Shown: positions 1,529 to 21,928, counted from the first letter of the stretch. The stretch is DNA of 21,928 bases from a virus (IMGVR_UViG_3300020439_002104:1-21928); one strand, 5' to 3'. A program made the numbers and translations. The notes: generated by a model not told the origin, from the sequence alone.

Positions 1529-1843
1529 ATGGACTATTTAATGGTATACCTAGACGAGAACCGGGAAAAACGAGCTGCGATTCCTGATGATGAAGGAGTG
1601 TATTACAATTCGGTTGATTTCGATGAGTATACTGAAGACATGTCTGCAACAGAAGTGGTGGTATTACAGTCTGAAGATTTCTACAATAAAGTTAGGGACC
1701 CTGATGCTGATGGTAAGTTTTTTACATGTAAATTTGCGGGTAGGTACGTATCTAACATGAAAGTGTGTGATAGTATAGAAGATATAGGATTTACTACATT
1801 TTTTACTACTGTTATTAATGAGCATATAAAATATGAAGAATGA
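1529..1843 (+). CDS. Hypothetical acidic protein (104 aa)
   Basis: This is the first gene of the plus-strand carbohydrate island. It starts at ATG 1529, 7 nt after a well-formed -10 element. The protein is strongly acidic (for example YNSVDFDEYTEDM at about residues 26-38) and appears globular, with a later hydrophobic stretch near GFTTFFTTVINEHI. There is no signal peptide, membrane segment or metal motif. Its stop overlaps the start of the next glycosyltransferase gene as ATGA, so the two are probably translationally coupled. The function is unknown. Position suggests a partner or regulator of the glycosylation genes, which is inference only. Confidence 0.65.
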   Translation: MDYLMVYLDENREKRAAIPDDEGVYYNSVDFDEYTEDMSATEVVVLQSEDFYNKVRDPDADGKFFTCKFAGRYVSNMKVCDSIEDIGFTTFFTTVINEHIKYEE

Positions 1844-2883
1844 AAATAGGAGTATTATTTTCTGCTTATAATTGCGCATCATACATTGATAAATGCTTGG
1901 AGCCGTGGTTAAAATTAAAAAAAGAACTTAATTTAGTACTGGCGGCAACTAATGGCCGGTACATATTATCTCCTGAAGAACCTGAAGACATGAAAGGTTC
2001 TCATTCTTTACTAAAATTATTAGGTAAAGATTTAGATTTTTTATTACATTCTTGTGGTCAAAACAGGTGGACCGAAGAACAAGGGCGTAATTACATGTTG
2101 AATTATGTATTAGATCAAAAAGTTGATTTAATTTGGGTTATTGATTGTGATGAAATATACACAGAAAAAGATATACGCAATATCTTGTCTTATATCAAGG
2201 AAAACCCTAATCCTGATTGTTATAGATTGTATTTTAAAAATTACTGTGTGAAATATCCGTATTGGATTGATGATGATTTTAATAAGTTTTGTATATATTG
2301 GACACAAAGAAGAGGCGGCGTAAAACAATTTTACTTTGACTGTGATTTAAAATATCAAAATGGAGATCTTGTGCATAAATTACAGCCTCAAAACTATCAT
2401 TTAATTGAAAAAAACACAGCATTCATAAATCACTATTCTTGGATACAAGATGATCCGAGGACAAAAGATAAAATACACAATCAAAATATAAAATATGCTG
2501 GCGAACAAGATGCTAAATGTGGTTATTTATTTGATTCGAAAGATAATTTAATAATAAACAAAACATTTTTTGAAAAAAGAAACGCAAAATTACCTCATCT
2601 TCATAAAACTTTAATTTCTGAATTAAATATATGTGATGTTAAATATGATGTTGCCGACAATATAATACGTTTGTCTTCAATCACTGACCTAGATAATTAT
2701 GTAATAAATATTTTAGACAATAAAAATAATTTAGTTTATTCTTGTGTTGCTGATTTATATATGAATTATTTTATAGGTCCCACTAGAGATTTAAGAATTG
2801 AAAATTATTTCATAATTGAATTCATAAAAGATAACAATATATTAAAAAAAGAAGAAATACATGTGAACTTCAATAATTATTAA
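1840..2883 (+). CDS. GT2-like glycosyltransferase (347 aa)
   Basis: Likely a nucleotide-sugar-dependent GT-A glycosyltransferase. The N-terminus (MKIGVLFSAYNCASYIDKCL) has the opening strand and acceptor-side helix typical of GT2-like enzymes. Residues 98-105 contain a hydrophobic strand ending IDCDE, a DxD metal/nucleotide motif at D102 and D104. A later NHYSW segment near residue 195 also occurs in related family 2 proteins, by my recollection. The C-terminal third is Asn/Ile-rich and unassigned. There is no membrane helix, so the enzyme is probably cytoplasmic. It overlaps the upstream gene by ATGA and is one base from the next gene. The sugar and acceptor cannot be inferred from sequence. 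Confidence 0.8.
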   Translation: MKIGVLFSAYNCASYIDKCLEPWLKLKKELNLVLAATNGRYILSPEEPEDMKGSHSLLKLLGKDLDFLLHSCGQNRWTEEQGRNYMLNYVLDQKVDLIWVIDCDEIYTEKDIRNILSYIKENPNPDCYRLYFKNYCVKYPYWIDDDFNKFCIYWTQRRGGVKQFYFDCDLKYQNGDLVHKLQPQNYHLIEKNTAFINHYSWIQDDPRTKDKIHNQNIKYAGEQDAKCGYLFDSKDNLIINKTFFEKRNAKLPHLHKTLISELNICDVKYDVADNIIRLSSITDLDNYVINILDNKNNLVYSCVADLYMNYFIGPTRDLRIENYFIIEFIKDNNILKKEEIHVNFNNY

Positions 2884-2884
2884 T

Positions 2885-5800
2885 ATGAATTATTTTATAA
2901 CACATTGTGATAAAAAATACATAAAATATGCTGAAAGATTATTTAAATCTTTAGAAAGATATTCTAATTGTAAGGTTTTATTTTTTTCTGTTGATTTTGA
3001 TTATAAAAATCGTTTTAAAAATGTAATTAATGTAAAATTTAATACCGCTGAAGCTTTTGGTGCTGAAGAAAACGATTTCACCGGTTCTTTCGACGAAAAT
3101 TGTAAATCTTTCCACGTATTTATAAAGCCATTGCTAATAAAAAACATTTTAGAAGGAAAATTACTAAAAATATCCGATGAAGATAATTTTTGTTACTTAG
3201 ATTCAGATTGTTTTGCGCGAAAATACTGTGATAATATATTTTTAAACGCAGAAAGGATTGTAAGTCACCCATTGCTGAATGTCGCATGTCAAGAATTCAT
3301 GATGATGTCTGATGGTAGGGGTAATCCTTTTGCAAATGGAGATATGGATTTGAATTTATCCTTAGAAGCTCCATTAATGCATAAACTAGGAATAAATATA
3401 AATTTAAGAACTAACACATATTTACAAACTGGAGTATTTTTATTTAATATAAAATGTTATAATTTTTTGTTAGAATGGTTTAATTTATGTTTTAGTGATT
3501 TAATTATCAATGATTGGCAGCATTTTGCGCCATTTCATGAGGAAACTGTAATCAATTGTCTTCTATGGAGAGATAAAGTTAAAGATAACTTAAAACAAAC
3601 TTTAATAAATGTAATCGAAGGAGGACAGGATGAGTTGCAGTTAATGGTTGATAAATTAAAAAATCCTGAGTCACAGTTAGAAAGGCTAACAACTTTTTGT
3701 GTCGTCCCTGCAAAACAAGACATTGATAACCTTTACTTCTACCATAGAAGAGTAACAAACTCTGTTTACAAATTTTTAACAAAAGAAATGAAGCAATACT
3801 TTTTATTAGTTCACTCGCCGTCTTTGGGGGATACTTTAGCAGCAACCCCAACATTAAGAAAACTTTCTAAATCCTACGATAGTTTGATAAATGTTGTAAC
3901 ATACAACAAAGAAATATTTAAAAATAATAAATATGTTTCTAAACTTTATTCTTTTGAAGAGTATAATAGCCTTAAATCATCTGTAAAAGGCTCTCATGAG
4001 GTTTTTGAGACGTTTTTGGGTATAGGAGATAAAAATGAGCGGGGAATAGAAAAGAAACACGCTACAATCGATATAAGACAATTCCACGCTTTGGATTTAG
4101 GTTTTTGTTTATCTGATAAAGATATGGAATATGATTTTTTCGCAGATGAATACCAACCAATACAAGGCTTACCCGAGAACTATATAGTTTTACATGTAGG
4201 ATCTACATGGCCTTCTAGAACTTACTCTAAAGAAAATTGGCAGCAATTAATAAAATTATTAAATCAATCTCAAATACCTGTAGTTTTAGTTGGAAAAAAT
4301 GATCATGAAACAGGTTTTTACGACATAGATAAAAAAACAATTAACTTAAATATTAATTTAGGTTTAGATTTAACAAATCAGTTAACTTTATCTCAGTGTT
4401 GGCATGTTATTAACAAGTCTAATTGTTTAATTACTATGGATTCTGGTTTATTGCATATAGCTGGAACAACAGATACTTTTATTGTTCAATTAGGTTCTTC
4501 TTTAAATAATAAATTAAGAGCTCCTTACAGAAATGGATCGCAAGATTATAAATATAAATATATAAGTGGACCTTGTGACATTTTTTGCGCTTCTGATATA
4601 AAATACGGAATCAAAGAGTGGGGCACTATTCAAGGTGTACCCCCTTTAATAAACTGTTTAGAAGGTAAAGATTCTTTTGAGTGTCATCCAGATCCCGTAA
4701 AAGTTCATCAGTTTGTAGAAAAAAAATATAACACCAACAATATAACTCTCAAAAAGAAAATATTATTTTTAGCCCCTCACTTGTCCACTGGTGGATCTCC
4801 AGCTTATTTAAAATGGTTAATAGAGAAAAAAATAAACGAAGGGCATGAAGTTGCGGTGGTAGAATATTGTTACTATGGAAATTATGTGGTTCAAAGAAAC
4901 CAAATAGAAAAAATCGTGGGACCGCAATGCTTTTATAGTTTCGGAAGATTAAACGATTCTGATGAATCTTACCAAAAAAGAACCGTCGAATTGATAAAAC
5001 ATATTAATTTATTTAATCCAGATGAAATTCACTTGAACGAAATAGCTGAAGTATTTTCTTTGAAAGTTTTAACTGATGAATTAAAAGAATTTTTATATAG
5101 CCCTGATCGCAAGTTTAAAATATTTGAAACTTGTCATAATTCCACATTTGATTTTAATAATAAAGTTTTAATTCCAGATGAATTTCATTTTTGCTCACCA
5201 TTTCATCTTAAGCTTTCAGAGCATTTAAATATTCCTAAAAAAATTGTAGAAATGGAAATTCCTAAAAAGCAGCGTCCAGAAAGAACGGCGGCTTTAAATA
5301 AATTAGGTTTATCTCCAGATTATTTTCATGTTCTTAACGTCGGTTTATTTATGGTAAATAAAAATCAAAAATATTTATTTACTTTAGCTGAAAAATTAAA
5401 AGATAGAAAAATTAAATTTCATTTCATAGGCAATACATGTTTTTTAAATGATTGCGGTATACCGGAAAATTTATTGAGCCTTGATAGCTGCGTAATCCAT
5501 GGAGAAAAAGATAATGTTGATGAATACATGGCTGCAATGGATTTATTCGCGTTTCCTTCGTTATTAGAGCTTAATCCAATTTCTCTTAAAGAGGCTTTAA
5601 GCTGGGGTATGAAAACTTTCTTAAATAAGTTGGACGTGTACTCTGATTATTTTGATGATAATGATTTAGTTACATATATTAAAAACGATAATTTATATAA
5701 ATATTTAGAATCTATGACAAAGTTAACCTCAGACATCCATTCAGAAGATAATAACAAAATTACACATAGTTTTGAAAATACGATTGGTAAAGTTGAAATA

Positions 5801-6850
5801 CTTGGTTCTGATAATTTTAATTATTTAGTTAAGTTTTTTAACAGCGAAGGGCAGGTTAGTTTTAAAGACAAAATAACTAACAATATGTGGTCAAAGGGTT
5901 TAGTGGGTGCTTGTGGGCGAGTCGAGATAACTAACTTATCAAATTTCAAAAAGACAACTTTATATTTTGAAAACAAAAAAGACTCTGACATAAATATAAT
6001 TAATGAATCTGGCGCTTTAGGAGATTGTTTGGGGTGGACTCCTGTGGTAAATCAATATGCACTAAACAAAAATAAAAAGGTAAACTTTTATACACCTCAC
6101 AAACATTTATTTGATAAAGATGAATATTCCATGATTGATTTTATTGATTATTCAAGTAAAGATCAAATCAAAGAAAATGAAACAACGATCAAGGTGGGTT
6201 GTTTTAAAAAAGAAAATCTTTCTGTTCCGTTACAGAAATTAGCTGCGGATATACTGGAGGTAGATGAAAAAAGCATAACGCATAAAAAGCCATTATTAAA
6301 TAAAACTTATTTTAAAGACAGTCCGTTTGAAAAAAAATACGTTTGCATAGCAACACAATCAACAGCTCAACTTAAATATTGGAATAATCCAGAAGGTTGG
6401 AATAAAACTGTAGACTATTTAAAAACTTTAGGTTACGAAGTTGTTTGTGTCGATAGGTACTCAAGTTACGGTAATGAGCAGAAAATGAATTTCATTCCAA
6501 AAAATGCTCTACATTATCCCGGCAAGTCCATGGCAGATATAATCAATTGTTTGCATCATTCTGAATTTATGATTGGTTTGAGTTCTGGTTTATCTTGGTT
6601 AGCGTGGGCTTGCGAAAAACCAGTTGTTATGATTTGTGGGTTTTTGAAACCTGAGTATCATTTTGATACGCCATATTATGTTCAAAATACAAATGTCTGC
6701 AATAATTGCTGGCACGATCCAAAACATTCGTTTGATTCTTCAAATTGGATGTGGTGCCCAGAAAATAAAAACTTTGAATGCTCTAGTAAAATTTCTTTTG
6801 AAATAGTGAAAGAAAATATAGATAATTTAATACAAGATCATAATTTATGA
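2885..6850 (+). CDS. Four-module glycosyltransferase fusion with C-terminal TibC/Aah-like O-heptosyltransferase domain
   Basis: At 1321 residues this is the largest gene here. Module 1 (about 1-300) is GT-A-like with CYLDSDCF and a DxD at D106/D108. Module 2 (about 305-600) resembles GT9 heptosyltransferases: HSPSLGDTLAATPTL, HVGSTWPSRTYSKENW, then MDSGLLHIAG. Module 3 (about 623-950) is a GT4-type GT-B domain with APHLSTGGSPAYL and an E-x7-E motif at E895/E903. Module 4 (about 965-1315) closely resembles bacterial autotransporter strand-loop-strand O-heptosyltransferases: GALGDCLGWTP, IATQSTAQLKYWNN, GLSSGLSWLAWA, and four cysteines at 1272, 1275, 1291 and 1299 matching the iron-finger pattern of TibC. 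Family members heptosylate Ser/Thr of adhesins; the substrate here is unknown. No stop or frameshift interrupts the frame. It is coupled to the next gene by an ATGA overlap. Confidence 0.85.
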   Translation: MNYFITHCDKKYIKYAERLFKSLERYSNCKVLFFSVDFDYKNRFKNVINVKFNTAEAFGAEENDFTGSFDENCKSFHVFIKPLLIKNILEGKLLKISDEDNFCYLDSDCFARKYCDNIFLNAERIVSHPLLNVACQEFMMMSDGRGNPFANGDMDLNLSLEAPLMHKLGININLRTNTYLQTGVFLFNIKCYNFLLEWFNLCFSDLIINDWQHFAPFHEETVINCLLWRDKVKDNLKQTLINVIEGGQDELQLMVDKLKNPESQLERLTTFCVVPAKQDIDNLYFYHRRVTNSVYKFLTKEMKQYFLLVHSPSLGDTLAATPTLRKLSKSYDSLINVVTYNKEIFKNNKYVSKLYSFEEYNSLKSSVKGSHEVFETFLGIGDKNERGIEKKHATIDIRQFHALDLGFCLSDKDMEYDFFADEYQPIQGLPENYIVLHVGSTWPSRTYSKENWQQLIKLLNQSQIPVVLVGKNDHETGFYDIDKKTINLNINLGLDLTNQLTLSQCWHVINKSNCLITMDSGLLHIAGTTDTFIVQLGSSLNNKLRAPYRNGSQDYKYKYISGPCDIFCASDIKYGIKEWGTIQGVPPLINCLEGKDSFECHPDPVKVHQFVEKKYNTNNITLKKKILFLAPHLSTGGSPAYLKWLIEKKINEGHEVAVVEYCYYGNYVVQRNQIEKIVGPQCFYSFGRLNDSDESYQKRTVELIKHINLFNPDEIHLNEIAEVFSLKVLTDELKEFLYSPDRKFKIFETCHNSTFDFNNKVLIPDEFHFCSPFHLKLSEHLNIPKKIVEMEIPKKQRPERTAALNKLGLSPDYFHVLNVGLFMVNKNQKYLFTLAEKLKDRKIKFHFIGNTCFLNDCGIPENLLSLDSCVIHGEKDNVDEYMAAMDLFAFPSLLELNPISLKEALSWGMKTFLNKLDVYSDYFDDNDLVTYIKNDNLYKYLESMTKLTSDIHSEDNNKITHSFENTIGKVEILGSDNFNYLVKFFNSEGQVSFKDKITNNMWSKGLVGACGRVEITNLSNFKKTTLYFENKKDSDINIINESGALGDCLGWTPVVNQYALNKNKKVNFYTPHKHLFDKDEYSMIDFIDYSSKDQIKENETTIKVGCFKKENLSVPLQKLAADILEVDEKSITHKKPLLNKTYFKDSPFEKKYVCIATQSTAQLKYWNNPEGWNKTVDYLKTLGYEVVCVDRYSSYGNEQKMNFIPKNALHYPGKSMADIINCLHHSEFMIGLSSGLSWLAWACEKPVVMICGFLKPEYHFDTPYYVQNTNVCNNCWHDPKHSFDSSNWMWCPENKNFECSSKISFEIVKENIDNLIQDHNL

Positions 6851-7218
6851 AAATAGAAGTTTCAAACGGAGAAATCTTAGATAAAATTACAATTTTGAGG
6901 TTAAAGTTAGAGCATATATATGATAAAGATAAAAGAGCTAATATTATAAAAGAATATGATTTTTTAAAGGAGGCTTCTGAGGAGATTAATTATTCAGATA
7001 ATTTATATCATGAATTGTATTTAGTTAATAAAGCTCTATGGAAAATTGAGGATGAAATTAGAAACAAAGAAAGAAGTAAAGAATTCGATCAAGAATTTAT
7101 TGATTTAGCGCGATCTGTTTATTTCACAAATGACAAACGTTCTGAAATTAAAAAACAAATAAATTTAGAAAGTAAATCTGAATTTGTTGAAGAAAAGTCA
7201 TATAAAGATTATGAGTGA
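6847..7218 (+). CDS. DUF6165-like protein of glycosyltransferase clusters (123 aa)
   Basis: The protein begins MKIEVSNGEILDKITILRLK and contains LYLVNKALWKIEDEIRNKE, FDQEFIDLARSVYFTNDKR and a C-terminal EEKSYKDYE. From memory this matches the small DUF6165 family, found next to heptosyltransferase and surface-polysaccharide genes; no biochemical role is known to me. It looks helical and charged, with no signal peptide or membrane segment. It overlaps the four-module glycosyltransferase by ATGA and the downstream methyltransferase by 8 nt, so all three are likely made together. It could be an accessory subunit of the TibC-like module (inference). Confidence 0.7.
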   Translation: MKIEVSNGEILDKITILRLKLEHIYDKDKRANIIKEYDFLKEASEEINYSDNLYHELYLVNKALWKIEDEIRNKERSKEFDQEFIDLARSVYFTNDKRSEIKKQINLESKSEFVEEKSYKDYE

Positions 7219-7864
7219 AAAAGAGTTATCTTCATACGGTTTTGTGGAAAATGAAATGTTTGAATTAAATCAATATCAAAGATTTCAAAAAGTAGAAGAA
7301 AACGATGTCGTTTTAGACTTAGGCTGTTCTAAAGGATTTTTTTATTTTTTGAACAGGCATTTGAATATTAATTATATTGGGTTAGACGCTAGTATAGATT
7401 GCGTCAAAGATTTTTATGATTACCTGCAAGAAGATGATGATCCTTTTATAATTAATTCTTTTTTAAGTGATAAATTTCATGTCGAAAAATTTCAATCTAT
7501 TTTTCATGATTTACCCGCTAAAGATGTGAACTCGTTAACTTTCAAGTCTTTAGTGAAAATTATAAATAAAAAAATAAATTTTTTAAAGTTCGATATAGAA
7601 GGTTATGAAAGACTTTTCCTAAAAGATGAGTATGATTTATTTAAACGCAGCGTAGATAAATTTGCGGGTGAGGTGCATTTCACGGAAACTTCAGCTTTAG
7701 GGCGAGCGGATGGATATGAAGTTCTAAATAAAATGAAAGAAGATGATGATATTGATTTTAAATTATATTCTGTAGATATGGTTGATATAACAGATTATTT
7801 TTGGAGCCACAAAGACTTTTATACAGAAATAATTATTAATGGGTTAATTAATTCAAAGATTTAA
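7211..7864 (+). CDS. FkbM-like SAM-dependent methyltransferase (217 aa)
   Basis: Likely transfers a methyl group from S-adenosylmethionine to a sugar or related hydroxyl. Motif I is VVLDLGCSKGFFYFL, followed by an acidic residue at the end of the next strand (YIGLDAS). The FkbM signature appears as NFLKFDIEGYERLFL. ATG 7211 is preferred because it overlaps the upstream stop in the usual phage manner; a longer frame would need a TTG start at 7184. The gene ends tail-to-tail with the minus-strand glycosyltransferase, sharing 17 bp. Context suggests methylation of a glycan built by the neighbouring transferases, perhaps as a cap. The acceptor is not determinable. Confidence 0.8.
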   Translation: MSEKELSSYGFVENEMFELNQYQRFQKVEENDVVLDLGCSKGFFYFLNRHLNINYIGLDASIDCVKDFYDYLQEDDDPFIINSFLSDKFHVEKFQSIFHDLPAKDVNSLTFKSLVKIINKKINFLKFDIEGYERLFLKDEYDLFKRSVDKFAGEVHFTETSALGRADGYEVLNKMKEDDDIDFKLYSVDMVDITDYFWSHKDFYTEIIINGLINSKI

Positions 7865-8891
7865 AAATCATTTCGTAATGATTACATTGTATTTCTATAG
7901 TGAAATTATGCATAGCGTTTTTTAAACAATTTTCAGGATTAATTTCCTTGCAACCTTTTCTTATTGCGAAATTAAATTGTTCGTAAGTCGAACATCTAAA
8001 TCCAGTGTATCCTTGTTTAACTGTTTCGGTGAAGCCTCCGAAGTCTGTAGTTATAGTCGGAGTTCCTGAAAACTGAGCTTCTATCACGGTCCAATTACAT
8101 GGTTCAATAAAAAAACTAGGCGCTAATAAAAATTTAGCTTCAGATAATAATTTCTTTCTTTTTTCAGGTTCTACAAAACCAAGCATCTTACAATATTTGG
8201 TATCTTTCAGTTCTAATATATTTGGCCCAGCAAAATATATTTCTTGGCCGATAGCGTTGCACATATCATACGCAGCTTGAGCCCCTTTTGGCTCTATCAT
8301 TCTGCCCAAAAATAAAGCTACGTTTGATTTTTGTTTTTTAAATAAAAAGTCTTCTTTTTCAAATCCCGGGTATACTACAAATTCTGAATTAAATTTTACA
8401 TTTGATTTTTGCGCTCCATGTAATTTATGCATCTGGGAGTAAGTTTCAAAAATCTTAATAGGGGCAAACATTGAATCATATCCTATGCTTGGTTCCACAA
8501 CTATCGCTTTGCTGATAAATTTTTTTACGCATTCATGGTGAGCAAAACCAAACCAGCATAATATAAATTCATCTTCTGACTTTATTCTTTTATTTAATTC
8601 TCTTTCGCAATTTTTGTTAAATATTTTTACAGATTCTGTTTTTGTTTGCTGGTTGTAACCTTTCGTCTTCCAGCTACTTAAATCTGAGTAGCTTTTTTTT
8701 AATATTTCGTCGTTGGTTACGGTTATATGCTCTGTGCATGTCACTTTAGAGTTTTCGTGACCATAATGATATACAGTATGACCACGTTTAGTCATTTCTT
8801 TGCAAAATTTATAAACTTTTTGTGTAAATGCACATAGTGAGTTTTCTTTTCTCGTAGGAGAATAAGGAACACTTAGGCAGTGAAAAATCAT
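7848..8891 (-). CDS. GT4-family (group 1) glycosyltransferase (347 aa)
   Basis: A GT-B fold glycosyltransferase. The N-terminal region has MIFHCLSVPYSPT and TKRGHTVYHYG, typical of the acceptor-side domain. The C-terminal donor domain has VALFLGRMIEPKGAQAA, then an E-x7-E motif in EPCNWTVIEAQFSGTPTITT and a Gly-rich FGGFTETV. The start is uncertain: ATG at 8891 gives the most family-like N-terminus, ATG at 8897 adds two residues, and the longest frame would need TTG at 8909. It is the only minus-strand gene between 1153 and the right end, and it faces the methyltransferase gene. This may be an independently regulated cargo gene. The sugar is unknown. Confidence 0.8.
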   Translation of the reverse strand: MIFHCLSVPYSPTRKENSLCAFTQKVYKFCKEMTKRGHTVYHYGHENSKVTCTEHITVTNDEILKKSYSDLSSWKTKGYNQQTKTESVKIFNKNCERELNKRIKSEDEFILCWFGFAHHECVKKFISKAIVVEPSIGYDSMFAPIKIFETYSQMHKLHGAQKSNVKFNSEFVVYPGFEKEDFLFKKQKSNVALFLGRMIEPKGAQAAYDMCNAIGQEIYFAGPNILELKDTKYCKMLGFVEPEKRKKLLSEAKFLLAPSFFIEPCNWTVIEAQFSGTPTITTDFGGFTETVKQGYTGFRCSTYEQFNFAIRKGCKEINPENCLKNAMHNFTIEIQCNHYEMIFKSLN

Positions 8892-8926
8892 ACACATATA
8901 GTGTAACAAATACTACAATATGTCAA
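8892..8926. promoter_or_regulatory. Compact divergent promoter region between GT4 and phoH-like genes
   Basis: Only 28 bp separate the two proposed start codons. On the minus strand, a perfect TTGACA (8926-8921) sits over the phoH-like start codon, followed 15 nt later by TACACT (8905-8900), 8 nt before ATG 8891. On the plus strand, TACAAT (8914-8919) abuts the ATG at 8920, and GTGTAA at 8901-8906 recurs ahead of other genes. The assignment is tentative. Confidence 0.3.
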
Positions 8927-14585: not shown

Positions 14586-14608
14586 AAAGTCACTTTGAAA
14601 GTAACTTT
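14586..14608 (+). other. Imperfect hairpin in terL-portal gap
   Basis: AAAGTCACTT and AAGTAACTTT pair at 9 of 10 positions around a TGA loop. No T-run follows, so a simple intrinsic terminator is unlikely. It lies just ahead of, and overlaps, the proposed portal promoter, so it could be an operator or mRNA-end structure. Confidence 0.35.
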
Positions 14609-14621
14609 GTGTAATTATAAT
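14595..14621 (+). promoter_or_regulatory. Possible promoter of the head gene block
   Basis: TTGAAA (14595-14600), a short 15-nt spacer and a perfect TATAAT (14616-14621) lie 6 nt ahead of ATG 14628. The short spacer weakens a sigma70 reading. A phage-sigma late promoter centred on TATAATATA is an alternative. Confidence 0.4.
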
Positions 14622-14627
14622 ATAGAT

Positions 14628-16670
14628 ATGCCACGTAAATATACAAAAAGATCAAATTATTGGGATAAGTTTTCATCAGGAAACGAAAGTAACAATAGTT
14701 CTTTGGAAGACTTGATAAAAGATCAGTCTTCAGAACCTCAATTAGTGGGAGATCCATTTTACAATTTTGATAGTAAAGCTGCAGCTTATTCAAGAAACGG
14801 TGGCGCTTCTTCTACTAATTTAAGAAGAAATAGAACTTCTGTAGCTCCCAAAATGCACAGATACGCAAATATTCGAGAAGGTTTATTGCCTTTCGAAATG
14901 TCTATTAATGGGTATAACGTTAGAGATGCTATCGAGTTGTGTCAAAAAGCTTATGCAAATGTATCAATTTTTCGTAACGCTGTTGATATCATGTCTGAGT
15001 TTTCAAACGCTGAAATCACTTTAGAAGGTGGCAGTTCAAAAGCTCAAGATTTTTTCCACAAGTGGATGAAATACGTAAAAATGTGGAGAGTAAAAGATCA
15101 GTACTTCAGAGAGTACTATCGTAGTGGTAATATTTTCTTTTATAAGTTAAATGCCAAATTTGGATTAGATGATTTTCAATCTATTTTAAAATCTTATGCG
15201 AATGATGGTTCTTATGATAATACAGAAAAAATTTATAATTATCCAACACCTTATGATGTAAAAAATTCTATTCCTGTTCAATACACTTTGCTTAACCCTT
15301 TTTACGTTGTTGCTAATAGATCCACTTCTTGGAAGCAAGTTATTTATCAAAAAGTACTTTCTGAATATGAATTAGAGAGATTACAAAACCCTAAAAACGA
15401 GCATGATAAAATTATTTTTGAAAGTTTAGATTCAGAAGCTCAAGACAAAATTAAAAATGGCCAATGGTCGCAGGATGGTTTAAAAATACAACTTAATCCA
15501 ACAGATGTCATTTATTCTTTTTATAAAAAGCAAGATTATGAGCCGTTTGCGGTTCCATTTGGTTTTGCTGTTTTGGATGATATTAATTTTAAGTTAGAAA
15601 TGAAAAAGATAGATCAAGCGATCTGTCGTACAATTGAAAATGTTATTCTTCTTATAACTTTAGGAACTGAGCCTTCCAAGGGTGGTATCAATCACAAGAA
15701 CATTTCTGCGATGCAATCTTTATTAGGTAATCAGTCAGTTGGCCGCGTACTAGTTGCAGATTATACAACCAAAGCGGATTTTATTATTCCTGATATGAAT
15801 AAAGTATTAGGGTATGAAAAATATAAAATTGTCAACGAAGATATTAAAGAAGGGTTACAGAATATTTTAATTGGTTCTGAAAAGTTCGCTAATACTACAA
15901 TTAAAGCTCAAGTATTTTTTGAAAGACTAAGAGAAGCTAGAAACGCATTCTTAAATGATTTCTTGCAGCCAGAAATGGAATTAATATTTAGAAATTTAGG
16001 TTTTAAAGGAAAATGTCCTATTGCTAAATTTGAAGAAGTGTCCATTAAAGATGAAACTCAGTTCAATAGAGTTGTTACAAGAATGATGGAACTTGGAATT
16101 CTGCCTCCAGAAGAAGGTATAAAAGTTATTGAAACAGGAATTTACCCTACCAACTCAGAGCTAGAAGCTGCCCAAGAAAAATTTGTCGAACAAAGAAAGA
16201 GGGGATTTTATAATCCTATTGTTGGTGGTGTACCAAGCGTAGCCCCTCCTATTCCCGGTGATGATTCAGTTGACGAGCCAAAACCAGATGTTAATCCAGT
16301 TAAAAATAGCGTTCCTAATGAAGTTGGCCGTCCAATTGGAACAACTAAAGCTAATGTTTATTCAAGAGAAGCTATAGCGGGGGTTTTTGATTTAACTAAA
16401 GAATTATATTCTAATGTACAAAATTTATTAAAACAAAAGTATAACAAGAAACGTTTAACAAAAGATCAAAAGAAATTAGCTGAAAGTGTTAGTGAGGCTA
16501 TTATTATAGGTTCAGAAAGTGATAGCTGGAGCAACACTGCCGAAAACGTTTTAAAAGATCCTTCCACATTGGATAAGTTAGGTGTGATGAAAGCTGTGCA
16601 AGATCTGGCAGCAGAACATGATTTAAACACGTATGCAGCTGCTTTATTATATCACAGTAATAAAAAATAA
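14628..16670 (+). CDS. Portal protein (680 aa)
   Basis: The dodecameric head vertex channel through which DNA is packaged and ejected. Evidence is the position directly after the terminase and before the prohead protease, the large size, and a portal-like core: INGYNVRDAIELCQKAY at the start of the stem/wing region, then FFHKWMKYVKMWRVKDQY and YYRSGNIFFYK, which resemble large phage portals. The C-terminal part is Pro-rich (GGVPSVAPPIPGDDSVDEP), then helical. ATG 14628 (MPRKYTKRSNYW) is chosen over a TTG at 14595 because the latter would put the TATAAT box inside the gene. Confidence 0.82.
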   Translation: MPRKYTKRSNYWDKFSSGNESNNSSLEDLIKDQSSEPQLVGDPFYNFDSKAAAYSRNGGASSTNLRRNRTSVAPKMHRYANIREGLLPFEMSINGYNVRDAIELCQKAYANVSIFRNAVDIMSEFSNAEITLEGGSSKAQDFFHKWMKYVKMWRVKDQYFREYYRSGNIFFYKLNAKFGLDDFQSILKSYANDGSYDNTEKIYNYPTPYDVKNSIPVQYTLLNPFYVVANRSTSWKQVIYQKVLSEYELERLQNPKNEHDKIIFESLDSEAQDKIKNGQWSQDGLKIQLNPTDVIYSFYKKQDYEPFAVPFGFAVLDDINFKLEMKKIDQAICRTIENVILLITLGTEPSKGGINHKNISAMQSLLGNQSVGRVLVADYTTKADFIIPDMNKVLGYEKYKIVNEDIKEGLQNILIGSEKFANTTIKAQVFFERLREARNAFLNDFLQPEMELIFRNLGFKGKCPIAKFEEVSIKDETQFNRVVTRMMELGILPPEEGIKVIETGIYPTNSELEAAQEKFVEQRKRGFYNPIVGGVPSVAPPIPGDDSVDEPKPDVNPVKNSVPNEVGRPIGTTKANVYSREAIAGVFDLTKELYSNVQNLLKQKYNKKRLTKDQKKLAESVSEAIIIGSESDSWSNTAENVLKDPSTLDKLGVMKAVQDLAAEHDLNTYAAALLYHSNKK

Positions 16671-16684
16671 GTGTAATAGTTACT

Positions 16685-18280
16685 ATGTATAAGTACATAA
16701 CGCGGTTCAATAATGTTGTTACTGCTTCAGTAAATTTTGATAATAATTTACTGTTGTCTCAAGCATCGTTAGAACCTATCAAAGGTTTAATACCTAAGTC
16801 AGTTAACTTAGAAAAGAATGTAGATTTAATTGGGGCAGCATTTAATGGTGCTGTTGTTAACGCTTTTAACAAAAATGGTGATGGGATTGACACTGATACC
16901 GCTATTGAATTTAAAAATTATTTTACGCATAAACCTACTAACATAGAACATAAAAAACAAAAAGTAGTAGGTCACATTGTTAATTCAGCTTTTTCTTCTT
17001 TTGGGGAAAATAACATTTTAACAGATGAAGATGTCAAGGGATCTTTAGATCCTTTTAATATTGCTTTAGCTGCTGTTGTTTATAAAACTGTAGATAAAGA
17101 TTTTGCTGAAGCACTTTTAGAATCTAATGATCCTGATTCAAACTTGTATCAAAAAATAAGCGCAAGCTGGGAGATAGGATTCAATGATTATAATATCGCT
17201 TTGGGTAGTGATAAGCTTAACGAAGCTGAAATCATTACTAAAAAAGAACAAATAAATGAATTTAAAAAATATCTGCGAGGTTTTGATGGTACTGGGTTCA
17301 CAGATGATGGAACGCCAGTTTATCGCCTTGTAACTGGAAGAATTTATCCGTTAGGTATCGGTTTTACAACCAACCCTGCGGCAAACGTAAATGGCGTAAT
17401 TGTTGGAGATGGAACTCAAGATGTAATGGATAAAAACGATGCGAGTGATACAGAGGTGGATAATAATACACCTGAAGTATTAAAAATTCGCGAAAATTTT
17501 TCACAAAATAAAAAACAACCTGTAAATATAACCAAAACTAATATTATGGATTTAGAACAGATATTATCAGATTTAAAGACCGTCCTTGCTGAAAAGCAGA
17601 CGAAAGAATCATTCAGCGAAGAGGCAGTTGCGAACATCTCTGCAAAAATCGCTGAAAGCATTAAGGAAAAGAGCGAAGAAATTCAATCTAAAATCGCTTC
17701 AGCTGAAGAAGCTAAGGCAACTGCTGTTGCTGAAGCTGAAGACTTAAAAAAGAGTTTAGCAGAAAATGGCGAAAAATTAGATAGTGCTCTTTCTAAAATT
17801 AACGAGTTAGAATCTATTCTTTCTGCGCAAGCTGCACAGGAATTATTTAATTCCAGAATGGGCATCTTAGACACAGAATACGATTTTGATGACGCTGACC
17901 GTAAGTTGTTAGCTGAAGAATTAAACACTTTAGATAGCTCAGAAGAAGCTTTTGCTTCTTACCAAGAAAAACTGACTGTGATTTATCGTCACAAGAGCAA
18001 AGCATTCAAGGATGAGCAAGAAAAGATTTTCCAAGAAAGATTAGAAGCTGAATTAGCTAAGAGAATTCAGAATACTGAAGAAGTTGAAGTTGCTGAAGCA
18101 TCTGCAGAAGCAACCGAAGCTCCTGAACCTGAAGTCGAAGTTGAGACTGCATTAGCAAATGCTCAGACTGAAGAAGCTTCTTTACCTGCTCAGAATATCG
18201 AGCCTACTGAAGAGAAGGTTTCTTGGAAGGACAAGTTAAGTAAGGCTTTTTCAAAAGAAAATATAACAATTAACTTTTAA
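16685..18280 (+). CDS. Prohead protease fused to scaffold-like domain (531 aa)
   Basis: The N-terminal 260 or so residues look like a phage head-maturation protease: VDLIGAAFNGAVVNAFNK, then NIEHKKQKVVGHIV with a candidate catalytic His89, and KISASWEIGF with candidate Ser159/Ser161, followed by RIYPLGIGFTTNPAANV. Residues about 288-530 are an acidic, Ala/Glu-rich, coiled-coil scaffold-like region ending in basic VSWKDKLSKAFSKE. Capsid protease-scaffold fusions are known in other phages. An internal ATG at residue 288 could make the scaffold alone. GTGTAAT lies 14 nt before the start. The catalytic residues are inferred from motif context. Confidence 0.8.
   Translation: MYKYITRFNNVVTASVNFDNNLLLSQASLEPIKGLIPKSVNLEKNVDLIGAAFNGAVVNAFNKNGDGIDTDTAIEFKNYFTHKPTNIEHKKQKVVGHIVNSAFSSFGENNILTDEDVKGSLDPFNIALAAVVYKTVDKDFAEALLESNDPDSNLYQKISASWEIGFNDYNIALGSDKLNEAEIITKKEQINEFKKYLRGFDGTGFTDDGTPVYRLVTGRIYPLGIGFTTNPAANVNGVIVGDGTQDVMDKNDASDTEVDNNTPEVLKIRENFSQNKKQPVNITKTNIMDLEQILSDLKTVLAEKQTKESFSEEAVANISAKIAESIKEKSEEIQSKIASAEEAKATAVAEAEDLKKSLAENGEKLDSALSKINELESILSAQAAQELFNSRMGILDTEYDFDDADRKLLAEELNTLDSSEEAFASYQEKLTVIYRHKSKAFKDEQEKIFQERLEAELAKRIQNTEEVEVAEASAEATEAPEPEVEVETALANAQTEEASLPAQNIEPTEEKVSWKDKLSKAFSKENITINF
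17546..18280 (+). CDS. Possible nested scaffold protein from an in-frame internal start (244 aa)
   Basis: The internal ATG at 17546 begins MDLEQILSDLKTVLAEKQ, exactly where a Lys/Asn/Thr-rich linker ends and the coiled-coil scaffold starts. Codon use changes here: upstream is strongly A/T-ending, while downstream has many C/G-ending codons like those of the decoration and capsid genes. Separate high expression of a scaffold from a nested start is a known strategy (for example lambda C/Nu3). No clear Shine-Dalgarno is visible, but few genes here have one. Confidence 0.45.
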   Translation: MDLEQILSDLKTVLAEKQTKESFSEEAVANISAKIAESIKEKSEEIQSKIASAEEAKATAVAEAEDLKKSLAENGEKLDSALSKINELESILSAQAAQELFNSRMGILDTEYDFDDADRKLLAEELNTLDSSEEAFASYQEKLTVIYRHKSKAFKDEQEKIFQERLEAELAKRIQNTEEVEVAEASAEATEAPEPEVEVETALANAQTEEASLPAQNIEPTEEKVSWKDKLSKAFSKENITINF

Positions 18281-18285
18281 AAGTT

Positions 18286-18939
18286 ATGGCATTAAGATTA
18301 TATCCATTCAGACAGTACAGCGAGCAAGACGTAGTTAACTTGTTTGCAAGCGACACTGCTGATACATCTCCATCTACAAATGGTAATGGTTCAGCTGGTG
18401 TATTCGTAAAAGTTTCAGCCGGTAACTTGGACAATGATCCAATTACTTATGCTACTAACGGTTACTTAGGTAAGACTGATTACCCTTTTGTTGGCGCTGC
18501 TCAGTATCCCTCAGTACCTTTAACTTTCACAGCGGCTACCAATGACGCTCCGGTTCTTGGTATTACGTTAAATCAAACCATCTTAGAGGATGAAAACGGA
18601 GAAAAGCTCCTCTACAATCCTGTTAAAGCTGCAGAATTACAAGCCGTTTTAAGCGGTCAAGCAGTTCCTGTTGCAACTCGCGGTCTCTTCACTTTAGATG
18701 ACGCGGCCATTGATTGGGTTGACGCCAACATGGTTCCTAATTCTCACTTAGTTATTTCTGCTACCGCAGGTAAGGTTTCTGGTGTTCTTTCTAGCGCCAC
18801 TCCTACAGCTGCTGTTGGCAGAATTTTAGCTACCGGTTCACGTTCTTCTCAGAATGGTGAAAGTGATCAGTTCGCTGGTACGGGCACTGGTAAATATGCC
18901 TTGGTCCAGATTGATTGTGTTACAACTAACATCGTCTAA
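18286..18939 (+). CDS. Putative capsid decoration/head protein (217 aa)
   Basis: It lies between the protease/scaffold and the major capsid gene, the usual place for a head decoration or stabilising protein. It begins MALRLYPFRQYSEQDVVNLF and is rich in Gly, Ala, Thr and Ser, with beta-strand-like alternation and no long helices (for example AGVFVKVSAGNLDNDPITYA, SGVLSSATPTAAVGRILATG). There is no signal peptide or membrane segment. Its codons are the C/G-ending set shared with the capsid gene, consistent with abundant expression. It starts five bases after the upstream stop. Function is assigned by context and composition, not by a recognised motif. Confidence 0.65.
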   Translation: MALRLYPFRQYSEQDVVNLFASDTADTSPSTNGNGSAGVFVKVSAGNLDNDPITYATNGYLGKTDYPFVGAAQYPSVPLTFTAATNDAPVLGITLNQTILEDENGEKLLYNPVKAAELQAVLSGQAVPVATRGLFTLDDAAIDWVDANMVPNSHLVISATAGKVSGVLSSATPTAAVGRILATGSRSSQNGESDQFAGTGTGKYALVQIDCVTTNIV

Positions 18940-18958
18940 CCCTTAGAAATTTAATAAT

Positions 18959-20128
18959 ATGAAGATAGTTTTAAAGAGAACAGACGAACAGGTTGAGTTA
19001 ATCAAAGCTTTGGCATCTAAAAACCGTGAAGTAGCCTTTGACGCGCAAGTCGCCTTGGCTGAATTCATTGGTCCAGTTTTAGCTGAAGTTATTAATAATG
19101 CTCCAACTGTTTCTAACTTATTCACAAGTTTACAATTCAACGCTGAAGACAATCCTTCAATTCCTCTCGACTTATACTATGATGTTTTAGATGAAGATTA
19201 CATCAAGGTTTACAGTCAGTCCGTTGCTGGTGGTCTTCCTCAGAATATCGTTCAGCCTACTGCTTCTGAACTCAAAATCGCAACCTATCGTTTAGATAGC
19301 GCTGTTGCTTTTGACAAGAAGTATGCTTCCAAGAGTCGTCTTGATGTTGTTAGCAAGTCTTTCACTCGCGTAGCTCAAGAAGTTATGTTAAAGCAAGAAA
19401 GAACTTCTGCTAACCTTCTTATGACTGCTTTAGCAACCGCTTCAACAGGAAATAGTGCAACAGCTGCTGATAATTATCACGTTTTCCGCTCTGCTGCTGC
19501 TGGTCGTTTTGTCTTGAGTGACTTCAACAAGTTATTCACTAAGATCAAGAGAAACAACGCTTCTTTTGTTGGCGGCACTCCTTCTGGAGCTCGTAGAGGT
19601 TTAACAGATCTCATCGTTTCCCCTGAAATCGTTGAAGAGCTTCGTGGAATGGCTTACAATCCTATTTCAACTAAAGGTCCAGATTTAACTTCTGCTCCTG
19701 CAGCTGGTGATGGAGCTGGTATTGCTGCTCCTGATTCTGTTCGTAGTCAGATGTTCAATCAGTCTGGTTTACCTGAGTTCTTTGGTGTTTCCATTATGGA
19801 AATCTTAGAACTTGGCGTTGGTAAGAAGTTTGATACAATCTTCAGAGCTGTAGATGGCAACACTGCTTACGCTGATAACTACGCTGTTAATGCTAACAGT
19901 GGTACAGCGCGAGCAATTCAAGCAACAGAGCAAGTCGTTGTTGGTCTTGACAGATCTCGCGATTCTCTTATTCGTGCTGTTGCAGTTGACGCTGATTCAG
20001 GTTCTGAATTCAACTTACAAGCTGACGATCAGTACACTCTTCGTCAGAACAAGATTGGTTACTTCGGTGCTCTTGAAGAAGGCCGTATGGTCCTCGACAG
20101 TCGCGCACTCGTTGGTCTTATCGTTTAA
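18959..20128 (+). CDS. Major capsid protein (389 aa), HK97-fold type
   Basis: The main shell subunit, inferred from location after protease/scaffold and decoration genes, length, and sequence character. The N-terminal helix-rich part (residues about 5-45) includes VALAEFIGPVLAEVINNAPT. It is followed by VSNLFTSLQFNAEDNPSIPL and by a spine-helix-like region, SKSFTRVAQEVMLKQERTSA. Later comes a beta-rich stretch with LTDLIVSPEIVEELRGMAYN, typical of P-domain sequence. Codons are noticeably richer in C/G endings than elsewhere. The gene ends 21 bp before a strong terminator. No processing site for the prohead protease could be assigned. Confidence 0.82.
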   Translation: MKIVLKRTDEQVELIKALASKNREVAFDAQVALAEFIGPVLAEVINNAPTVSNLFTSLQFNAEDNPSIPLDLYYDVLDEDYIKVYSQSVAGGLPQNIVQPTASELKIATYRLDSAVAFDKKYASKSRLDVVSKSFTRVAQEVMLKQERTSANLLMTALATASTGNSATAADNYHVFRSAAAGRFVLSDFNKLFTKIKRNNASFVGGTPSGARRGLTDLIVSPEIVEELRGMAYNPISTKGPDLTSAPAAGDGAGIAAPDSVRSQMFNQSGLPEFFGVSIMEILELGVGKKFDTIFRAVDGNTAYADNYAVNANSGTARAIQATEQVVVGLDRSRDSLIRAVAVDADSGSEFNLQADDQYTLRQNKIGYFGALEEGRMVLDSRALVGLIV

Positions 20129-20149
20129 TATCAATCAGATCCACTCAGA

Positions 20150-20181
20150 GGGTGCTACTCATAAGGGTAGCACCCTTTTTT
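20150..20181 (+). terminator. Strong intrinsic terminator after the major capsid gene
   Basis: GGGTGCTAC (20150-20158) pairs perfectly with GTAGCACCC (20167-20175). The stem extends by a T-G and a C-G pair to leave an ATAA tetraloop, and six T residues follow. It closes the head operon. Confidence 0.92.
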
Positions 20182-20182
20182 A

Positions 20183-20209
20183 TTGAATTTTAAAATTTTA
20201 TTTTATTAT
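20183..20209 (+). promoter_or_regulatory. Possible promoter directly after the terminator
   Basis: TTGAAT (20183-20188), a 15-nt spacer and TATTAT (20204-20209) lie 6 nt before ATG 20216. The layout matches the portal promoter candidate (TTGAAA-15-TATAAT-6-ATG). The region is very A/T-rich, so chance matches are possible. Confidence 0.35.
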
Positions 20210-20215
20210 ATATAT

Positions 20216-20605
20216 ATGGCCAAAAAATCTACCAAAAATAAGAAGTCTGAATTAGATAACTTAAACTTTGCTGACGGTAAAGTTCATGAAGATCCTGACA
20301 TCACAAAAGTTAGGGAAATGGAAAAAGCTTTAGGAATTGAAAAGGCAAACCCCTTTGGCACAACAAGTTTAGAAATCTTTAAAGAAAAGCTGAAAGAAAT
20401 GACTAATGTTGATTTGCAACATATGTGTGAAAAGATCGGCATTTTTGCTAGCGGTTCTAGGCAAGATATCAAAGATAAACTATTAAGAGAATTTAGGTCT
20501 ACTAACAAGGGTACTATTGGAATGATGACCGAAAACCCTTCTGTTCATTTAGACCCTAATAATCCAGAGCATCAAAAAGCTTTAAAAATACTTGGAGAAA
20601 TTTAG
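20216..20605 (+). CDS. SAP-like domain protein, possible head-completion factor (129 aa)
   Basis: The N-terminus is basic (MAKKSTKNKKSELDN). Residues about 62-95 (EMTNVDLQHMCEKIG followed by ASGSRQDIKDKLLREF) match the two-helix SAP/Rho-N type pattern used for nucleic-acid binding. The C-terminus (PNNPEHQKALKILGEI) is short and helical. The ATG at 20216 is preferred over an upstream start at 20183, which would add a hydrophobic Phe/Ile/Tyr tail and cover the promoter-like element. It lies just after the capsid terminator, in the head-to-tail transition part of the genome. A head-completion or DNA-contact role is a guess. Confidence 0.65.
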   Translation: MAKKSTKNKKSELDNLNFADGKVHEDPDITKVREMEKALGIEKANPFGTTSLEIFKEKLKEMTNVDLQHMCEKIGIFASGSRQDIKDKLLREFRSTNKGTIGMMTENPSVHLDPNNPEHQKALKILGEI

Positions 20606-20645
20606 TTATTCTTCTTTTTTTATTGTATTAAGTGTAAAGTAAGAT

Positions 20646-20990
20646 GTGGCAACGCAACTTACTGTAATTCGTGGCGACAGGCTTGAGACTCAGACTATAA
20701 ATTTATCTTCTTCTGTTGATGATTTTACGGGTCTTGTTTGCACTGGTGAACTTCGCGCTCATCCCGATGGAGATTTAATTTATCAATTTGTTCCTACTGT
20801 TGAATACGCTGCTCCACAGAGTGGAGCCGTATATTTTTCAATTCCCGGGGATGAAACTAAAAGCTTTCCTCCTTTAAATTTATACGGAGATATTCATTTT
20901 ACTACAGAAGGAGGTACCGCTAGTGGAGTATATAATAGAACTCTTTTTGAGTTTAGGCTAAACGTCAAAGCTGATGTTACTCAGTTATAA
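20646..20990 (+). CDS. Small beta-rich phage protein, possible tail/baseplate accessory (114 aa)
   Basis: The only in-frame start is GTG at 20646 (TAA lies two codons upstream). The protein begins MATQLTVIRGDRLETQTINL, and its pattern (RGD near the start, DDFTGLVCTGELR, YFSIPGDETKSFPPL, a final FEFRLNVKADVTQL) resembles small all-beta phage proteins with a BppU-N-terminal-like layout found next to fibre genes. GTGTAA lies 14 nt upstream. It ends 10 bp before the collagen-like gene, which has TAAGGA as a ribosome site at 20988-20993. A role in mounting the fibre is inference. Confidence 0.65.
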   Translation: MATQLTVIRGDRLETQTINLSSSVDDFTGLVCTGELRAHPDGDLIYQFVPTVEYAAPQSGAVYFSIPGDETKSFPPLNLYGDIHFTTEGGTASGVYNRTLFEFRLNVKADVTQL

Positions 20991-21000
20991 GGAATAATTT

Positions 21001-21928
21001 ATGGGAGAAATTAACGTAAATTTATCTTCAGGTGATCCAATAGATGTTAATTTGGCCTCCCAAGTTAGTACTGGTGCCACTGCTCAAACCATTGCAAGAG
21101 GTCCAGCGGGTTCTTCGGGTAGTAGCGGTACTTCAGGTATTAGTGGTACTTCTGGTACTTCAGGGACTAGCGGCACATCAGGAACAAGTGGCACTTCTGG
21201 TACTTCTGGAACATCAGGCACTAGCGGCACTTCTGGGACATCAGGCACTAGCGGCACCTCAGGAGCTTTAGGTCCACAAGGTGATACAGGTGCTACTGGA
21301 CCAGCTGGTACATCAGGGACAAGTGGTACATCAGGGACAAGTGGTACATCAGGGACAAGTGGCACCTCAGGTTTAGATGGTAATTACGGTGGAATTTCGA
21401 TTAAATACAATTTTTCTACCAATACTTTAGACACTGACCCGGGAGCAGGAGATTTTAAATTCAATTCTTCTACTCAATCTTTAGCTTCTAGGATTAACAT
21501 AAATTCTGAAAGTTTAGAAGGTGCAGATCTTAGCGCTTTTTTAAGAGCTATTGATGATTCAAATAGCGGAGTTAGTGGTCATGTAAAAATATCTAAAATA
21601 TTTGATCCAGAAAAGTTTATCATTTTTAGCTTAACAACATCTACTGAGTTTTCTGGATATTTTAAAATTTTAGTAACAAGAATTTCAAGCTCAGAAACTA
21701 ATCCTTTTGTAAATGGTGATGATTGCATATTGAGTTTTTCTAGAACTGGTGATTCAGGATCAAGTGGAACTTCTGGAACCAGCGGAACTTCTGGAACCAG
21801 CGGAACTTCTGGAACCAGCGGAACTTCTGGAACCAGCGGTACATCAGGTACTTCTGGCACATCAGGGACTAGTGGGACTAGTGGTACATCAGGCACCAGC
21901 GGAACTTCAGGAACCTCTGGTACTAGCG
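21001..21928 (+). CDS. Collagen-like GTS-repeat tail fibre/structural protein, partial at right edge
   Basis: ATG 21001 follows an AAGGA ribosome site 7 nt upstream; the frame is open to the window end (309 codons visible). Layout: a short N-terminal head (about residues 1-33), a first run of Gly-Thr-Ser triplets (to about residue 88) with a collagen-like segment GALGPQGDTGATGPAG, another GTS run to about residue 123, a globular domain (about 125-250, with YGGISIKYNFSTNTLD and RAIDDSNSGVSGHVKISKIF), then a second GTS array entering the edge. Gly-X-Y repeats suggest a trimeric collagen-type shaft, as in many phage fibres. Such GTS-repeat proteins with this interposed domain occur in environmental phages (recollection). 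The density of Ser/Thr makes it a candidate glycosylation target. Confidence 0.85.
   Translation, partial: MGEINVNLSSGDPIDVNLASQVSTGATAQTIARGPAGSSGSSGTSGISGTSGTSGTSGTSGTSGTSGTSGTSGTSGTSGTSGTSGTSGALGPQGDTGATGPAGTSGTSGTSGTSGTSGTSGTSGLDGNYGGISIKYNFSTNTLDTDPGAGDFKFNSSTQSLASRININSESLEGADLSAFLRAIDDSNSGVSGHVKISKIFDPEKFIIFSLTTSTEFSGYFKILVTRISSSETNPFVNGDDCILSFSRTGDSGSSGTSGTSGTSGTSGTSGTSGTSGTSGTSGTSGTSGTSGTSGTSGTSGTSGTSGTS
21307..21360 (+). repeat. Three exact 18-bp tandem repeats coding GTSGTS
   Basis: The unit GGTACATCAGGGACAAGT occurs three times in tandem, inside the first Gly-Thr-Ser shaft. Neighbouring triplets use different synonymous codons, so this exact block looks recently duplicated. Confidence 0.9.
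21766..21837 (+). repeat. Four exact 18-bp tandem repeats coding GTSGTS
   Basis: The unit GGAACTTCTGGAACCAGC occurs four times in tandem, starting the second shaft segment. Its codon choice differs from the 21307 array, indicating separate expansion. Copy number may vary between strains or be collapsed in assembly. Confidence 0.9.

Follow-up and report, generated by a model that had tools for sequence, protein, structure and literature searches.

The question raised by this locus is what a phage makes with one polypeptide that reads as several glycosyltransferases in series, and on which acceptor. The gene lies at positions 2885 to 6850, on the plus strand, of a 21,928-nucleotide viral sequence (IMGVR_UViG_3300020439_002104:1-21928), which makes up its entire viral record and is referred to here as the window. 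The 1,321-codon frame proved to be a single open reading frame without interruption, as the first-pass annotation had stated. The encoded 1,321-aa protein had relatives in other phages and no match in PHROGs.

Four glycosyltransferase modules in an operon-like run

The protein consists of a retaining GT-A module, a GT9 module, a GT4 module, and a whole TibC protomer, four glycosyltransferase modules that are each complete. All four had been named in the first-pass annotation, and profiles, folds, and catalytic motifs showed each name to be correct. The borders guessed there were close to those found (residues ∼1 to 295, 300 to 620, 622 to 945, and 955 to 1321, the last divided into a barrel at 955 to 1034 and a catalytic domain at 1035 to 1321). 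Profile and structure checks of the separate modules recovered glycosyltransferase folds in all four, for module 1 through its model only.

Module 1 (positions 2885 to 3769) had no family match when residues 1 to 295 were searched alone against Pfam. Its AlphaFold model (pLDDT, 93.4) identifies it as a retaining GT-A fold with GT6, GT24, and GT8 enzymes as nearest relatives (GT6, VIA Z of 16.4 over 216 residues; the GT8 enzyme LgtC, Foldseek E of 7e-7). Both aspartates of its DxD motif, D106 and D108, were invariant among 53 homologues, so that GT-A fold and motif are both present, with membership no finer than GT6/GT8/GT24-like. Module 2 (3782 to 4744) is GT9, or heptosyltransferase-like (PF01075; E of 3.5e-23; 82.7 bits versus a cut-off of 22), and D316 is the catalytic Asp of its LGD motif. 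Module 3 (4748 to 5719) is a GT4 enzyme of the GT-B type (PF00534; E of 5.7e-10; 39.4 bits versus a cut-off of 26.4), in which both glutamates of the EX7E motif, E895 and E903, were invariant.

The fourth module comprises a TibC-type N-terminal beta-barrel (5747 to 5986) and a TibC-type GT-B catalytic domain (5987 to 6847). It scored 252.9 bits against the TIGR04414 equivalog profile, for which the curated cut-off is 200, and matched PDB 4rap with an E of 1.8e-47. A structure model of residues 945 to 1321 (pLDDT, 92.8) aligned to 4rb4/4rap with a Z of 36.8 over 353 residues, covering chain 21 to 392 of 4rb4 and including the barrel; the next-best structures, of GT9 enzymes, reached a Z of about 21 (21.2). 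The barrel, D110, and the four-cysteine iron finger of TibC are required for protein glycosylation (PMC4358343). Of the TibC residues studied in that work, the phage module keeps D110 (its catalytic D1047), T226, K230, and W305, together with all four cysteines of the iron finger. These cysteines (C1272, C1275, C1291, and C1299, at 6698 to 6781, equivalent to TibC C339/342/358/370) did not vary among the TibC modules compared, 151 from viruses and 95 from bacteria.

The gene is tightly packed among its neighbors. A 347-aa GT2-like gene (1840 to 2883, plus strand), a member of the same cassette whose PF00535 match was weak (E of 0.0019, below the cut-off), ends 1 to 2 bases upstream; it is kept in L009, L021, and L022, with more distant forms in L011 to L013. 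On the other side, the start of a DUF6165 gene (6847 to 7218, plus strand; PF19662; E of 3.3e-14) overlaps the stop codon, and an FkbM-like methyltransferase gene follows (7184 to 7864, plus strand; PF05050; E of 3e-5, above the cut-off). A conserved glycosyltransferase on the minus strand (7848 to 8909; phrog_3408; E of 2.6e-59), 66 to 85% identical among relatives, marks the right edge of the variable cassette. That the 1,321-codon frame is an assembly artefact fusing separate genes can be put aside as extremely improbable, because full-length relatives with the same four modules in the same order (L009 to L015 and L186) occur on several independent contigs from other metagenomes and because the genes upstream and downstream abut or overlap the frame.

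The terminase of the window is at most ∼25% identical to those of isolated phages, and therefore no host was inferred. The window apparently represents a phage lineage without prior description. Three proteins encoded 3' of the terminase (14595 to 20990; 680, 531, and 389 aa) had no PHROG match.

A shuffled family of fused phage enzymes

The first-pass annotation implied that the four-part layout was unique, which did not hold: many architectures occur in this widespread phage family, the layout of the window among them. An alignment search returned 170 relatives, and in the 80 from which architectures were taken the commonest was GTA-GT4-TibC; the GTA-GT9-GT4-TibC order of the window was frequent, and split and permuted forms were also present. 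The same kinds of module occur, shuffled, in more than 100 other phages, where the partners of TibC are GT-A, GT9, GT4, GT2, FkbM methyltransferase, and SDR modules. A search with the TibC module added GT4-TibC, GT4-GT4-TibC, GT2-GT4-TibC, GT4-GT2-TibC-FkbM, GT9-GT9-FkbM-TibC, GT4-GT4-FkbM-TibC, and TibC-FkbM-SDR. With the TibC query, 70% of viral TibC open reading frames were at least 600 aa long, versus 2% of bacterial ones, and the bacterial relatives were almost always single-domain proteins (median, 439 aa). No description of fused phage glycosyltransferases was found in the open-access literature, and the 1,321-aa protein apparently belongs to a large modular phage protein family without prior description.

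Several members deserve separate mention. The isolated Microcystis phage Mel-JY01 (PP395634.1; L006:2550-6230) encodes a 1,226-aa protein, deposited as "methyltransferase FkbM," that consists of a GT4 module, a methyltransferase, a TibC barrel, and a TibC catalytic domain. At L230:700-3447 one protein joins a TibC module to FkbM methyltransferase and short-chain dehydrogenase modules; thus, sugar-nucleotide chemistry may be fused as well. The TibC reading frame at G060:C1:85590-86381 contains five in-frame TGA codons, which suggests either that TGA encodes an amino acid in this phage or that the gene has decayed.

Modules have been gained, lost, split, permuted, and swapped between relatives. 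Among close relatives, the 1,003-aa proteins of L002 and L004 are GT-A/GT4/TibC and lack GT9, and L003 and L005 encode GT-A/GT9/FkbM/GT4/TibC proteins (1,639 and 1,634 aa) plus a separate TibC-only gene. The FkbM modules of L003 and L005 are 80 to 96% identical, versus mostly 35 to 80% for their other modules. Cassette genes are variable or missing in relatives, and cassette modules are 43 to 79% identical to those of the window in phages whose PhoH, sigma, and terminase proteins are 68 to 99% identical; because the cassette varies while these genes stay conserved, it constitutes an island whose content changes but whose location does not. GT-A trees group the window with L009/L010 (81/98), a group that the TibC data reject (AU P value, 7e-5), and the TibC clade of L021 and L022 (100/99) is rejected by the GT-A data (AU P value, 5e-6), the groups for these tests having been picked after the identities were seen. 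Judged from such conflicts between trees, modules are exchanged between related phages.

In L028/L029, GT9 and FkbM methyltransferase are separate genes adjoining GTA-GT4-TibC, and the FkbM-like gene of the window clusters with the free-standing methyltransferases of these two loci. Free-standing neighbors of this kind are what fused enzymes of successive pathway steps would predict and support one common pathway. They thus lend weight to the earlier proposal that a single polypeptide builds a short glycan, a synthesis that we infer.

A collagen-like fibre as candidate acceptor

Absent from the first-pass annotation was a candidate acceptor encoded in the same window. The open reading frame at 21001 to 21927 (plus strand), which runs off the end of the window, encodes a collagen-like tail fibre with Gly-X-Y repeats (PF01391; E of 1.2e-22; 79.9 bits versus a cut-off of 27.2). 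It contains 42 G[ST][ST] triplets, of which 39 are GTS, and the triplet DNA pattern matched 24 times versus 0 times in 100 shuffles. The fibre and glycosyltransferase genes are 14 kb apart. A scan for Ser/Thr-rich proteins located a Gly-Ser-Ser/Gly-Thr-Ser fibre at the equivalent position of a 114-kb relative. We consider it somewhat better than an even bet that the 1,321-aa protein is a one-polypeptide O-glycan assembly line, TibC priming and the other modules extending, that coats this collagen-like fibre of the phage itself.

The co-occurrence of TibC modules and this repeat in phages is new here. Gly-Ser/Thr-Ser/Thr repeats were present in 32 of 38 TibC records versus 0 of 34 TibC-negative controls (P value, 1e-14), and contigs selected solely for the repeat carried TibC in 14 of 26 cases (P value, 6e-7); of the 13 such contigs of 80 kb or more, 10 did. 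These P values overstate independence, since the lineages positive for TibC and for the repeat are in part related. The cyanophage-sheath control set was narrow, and a random-contig control was therefore added. Mel-JY01 is among the six TibC records in which the repeat is missing. None of 12 large-phage controls without TibC had the repeat, and among 23 random large contigs the only one with TibC was also the only one with the repeat, ∼3 kb away. The repeat gene adjoins the TibC gene or lies within a few hundred bases of it in L194, L206, L213, L027, L069, and L598; the order in L206 is GT9, GT4..TibC, and a 963-aa fibre with 127 triplets. Proteins with the repeat match tail-fibre families, although the repeats themselves may drive the PHROG "tail fibre" names. 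In L598 (G078:66000-84000), on a random 252-kb viral contig, a fibre open reading frame of at least 2,780 aa with 690 Gly-Ser/Thr-Ser/Thr triplets is close to a glycosyltransferase gene with a TibC module.

Clusters of glycosyltransferase genes in cyanophages, pelagimyophages, and jumbo phages are usually read as remodelling the host surface (PMC7824862, PMC7029224). The 1,321-aa protein might likewise build or cap host LPS or capsule, blocking superinfection or changing a receptor, and some relatives do carry sugar-nucleotide genes near the cassette (phrog_540 epimerase). However, the TibC barrel and iron finger, with its invariant cysteines, mark an enzyme with a protein acceptor (PMC4358343), and the repeat was found within the fetched flank of 41 of 163 viral TibC loci versus 0 of 80 bacterial ones, a strong tie to Ser/Thr triplet fibres in phages. 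A role at the host surface is therefore credible but unlikely.

O-glycosylation of a different virion protein, such as the tail sheath or capsid, was also considered and seems rather improbable. Virion glycosylation in mycobacteriophages is cited in PMC12619734, and at 20 loci (L197:6947-10861 and 19 others) a tail-sheath gene lies directly 3' of the TibC cassette, with a GT4-TibC gene on its 5' side. A Ser/Thr-rich insert (20 to 28% S+T over residues 100 to 600) lengthens the sheaths at these loci to ∼1,100 to 1,350 aa; the sheath of Mel-JY01 has 812 aa and that of a Flavobacterium phage 709 aa. A sheath acceptor would nevertheless leave unexplained the association with the repeat, which holds also in L197-type records with a long sheath, and the lineage of the window has no such sheath link.

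Virus-encoded glycosyltransferases take part in DNA hypermodification (Pyle 2024, as cited in PMC12619734), and the modules could in principle add a sugar chain onto modified phage bases. But the TibC fold acts on a protein acceptor, and of 10 records G022 alone had a match to PF00303, the thymidylate-synthase-type hydroxymethylase; the 114- and 128-kb relatives were among the 9 without one. Some of these records may be incomplete. We regard a DNA acceptor as very unlikely, and the collagen-like fibre remains the preferred one.

Proposed pathway and comparison with known systems

For the activity of the 1,321-aa protein, the order of its steps, its donors, its acceptor, and its benefit, we infer the following scheme. 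Priming would probably fall to the TibC-type module, which would place a first sugar on Ser/Thr hydroxyl groups in a protein of the phage; the GT-A, GT9, and GT4 modules of the polypeptide would extend the glycan with further sugars. Products of neighboring genes might complete it: the GT2-like protein and the FkbM methyltransferase, FkbM-type enzymes being expected to methylate. The likeliest acceptor would be the phage's own fibre (21001 to 21927), in whose Gly-Thr/Ser-Ser triplets hydroxyls are dense and proline is scarce. Module swaps between related phages would alter the glycan displayed on the fibre.

The first sugar may not be heptose. Arg286 of TibC, which contacts the adenine of ADP-heptose (PMC4358343), is Ile1219 in the 1,321-aa protein, and therefore its donor may not be ADP-heptose. 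Arg was present at this position in 94 of 95 bacterial modules versus 58 of 151 viral ones; its loss from most fused TibC forms predicts an altered donor for the module. A supply of ADP-heptose was rejected as a general trait of the relatives, as heptose-pathway genes occurred in isolated records only. GmhA was detected above the cut-off in a single relative's record, the 636-kb phage LR756504.1 (L252:6084-6653), where a TibC-like gene lies ∼27 kb away. The 163-kb record of L029 contains two adjacent, overlapping genes (L250:6848-7988) that look like a split HldE, one like the heptose-7-P kinase and the other like the heptose-1-P adenylyltransferase, and both score below curated cut-offs. An adenylyltransferase-like match in the 114-kb relative was a better fit to glycerol-3-phosphate cytidylyltransferase. 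Since some relatives carry heptose-pathway enzymes, heptose may still be the sugar used.

Extended to the family, it is about an even call whether TibC-initiated O-glycan assembly lines, combinatorial and each on a single polypeptide, coat collagen-like Gly-Ser/Thr-Ser/Thr virion fibres, with shuffling giving each phage its own coat. If so, phages would produce their own glycoprotein fibres using modular enzymes whose build somewhat resembles that of natural-product megasynthases, and a phage could change its glycan by swapping modules. Large glycosyltransferase cassettes hitherto read as modifying host LPS would gain a function, Ser/Thr-rich collagen-like phage fibres a rationale, and the fused enzymes would be a kit for protein O-glycans.

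Among the closest known systems is TibC/BAHT (TIGR04414; 4rap, 4rb4; PMC4358343), with which the phage module shares the complete protomer: barrel, GT-B core, iron finger, and the residues D110, T226, K230, and W305. Bacterial relatives stand alone, whereas the phage module is fused behind three other glycosyltransferases and has Ile in place of Arg286. The canonical SLST acceptor repeat of TibC (TIGR04415) was not found in the window or in 30 other phage records, 31 in all. Because the ADP contact and the SLST acceptor are both missing, the 1,321-aa protein was not classed as an autotransporter heptosyltransferase.

Chlorovirus PBCV-1 has three-domain glycan synthases, A111/114R (PMC7826918) and A064R, in which a single viral polypeptide likewise combines several glycosyltransferase domains and makes glycans for a virion protein, a likeness of working and not of compared sequence. 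They differ in coming from a eukaryotic virus, in making N-glycans on a capsid, and in their modules. No TibC module is known in A111/114R or A064R, nor is any shuffling of their domains. The bifunctional glycosyltransferase WbbM (PDB 6u4b) is also a chain of several glycosyltransferases and has a structurally similar GT-A module (Z of 16.1), but it is a bacterial O-antigen enzyme with other partner domains. LPS-like gene clusters of phages resemble the locus as variable cassettes of glycosyltransferase, methyltransferase, and sugar-nucleotide genes; there the genes are separate and are taken to modify the host surface (PMC7824862, PMC7029224). A parallel for the proposed acceptor is Clostridioides difficile BclA3 with SgtA (PMC7157674), a collagen-like protein with a dedicated glycosyltransferase; BclA3 is a bacterial spore protein served by one glycosyltransferase, whereas the triplets of the phage fibre are Gly-Thr/Ser-Ser.
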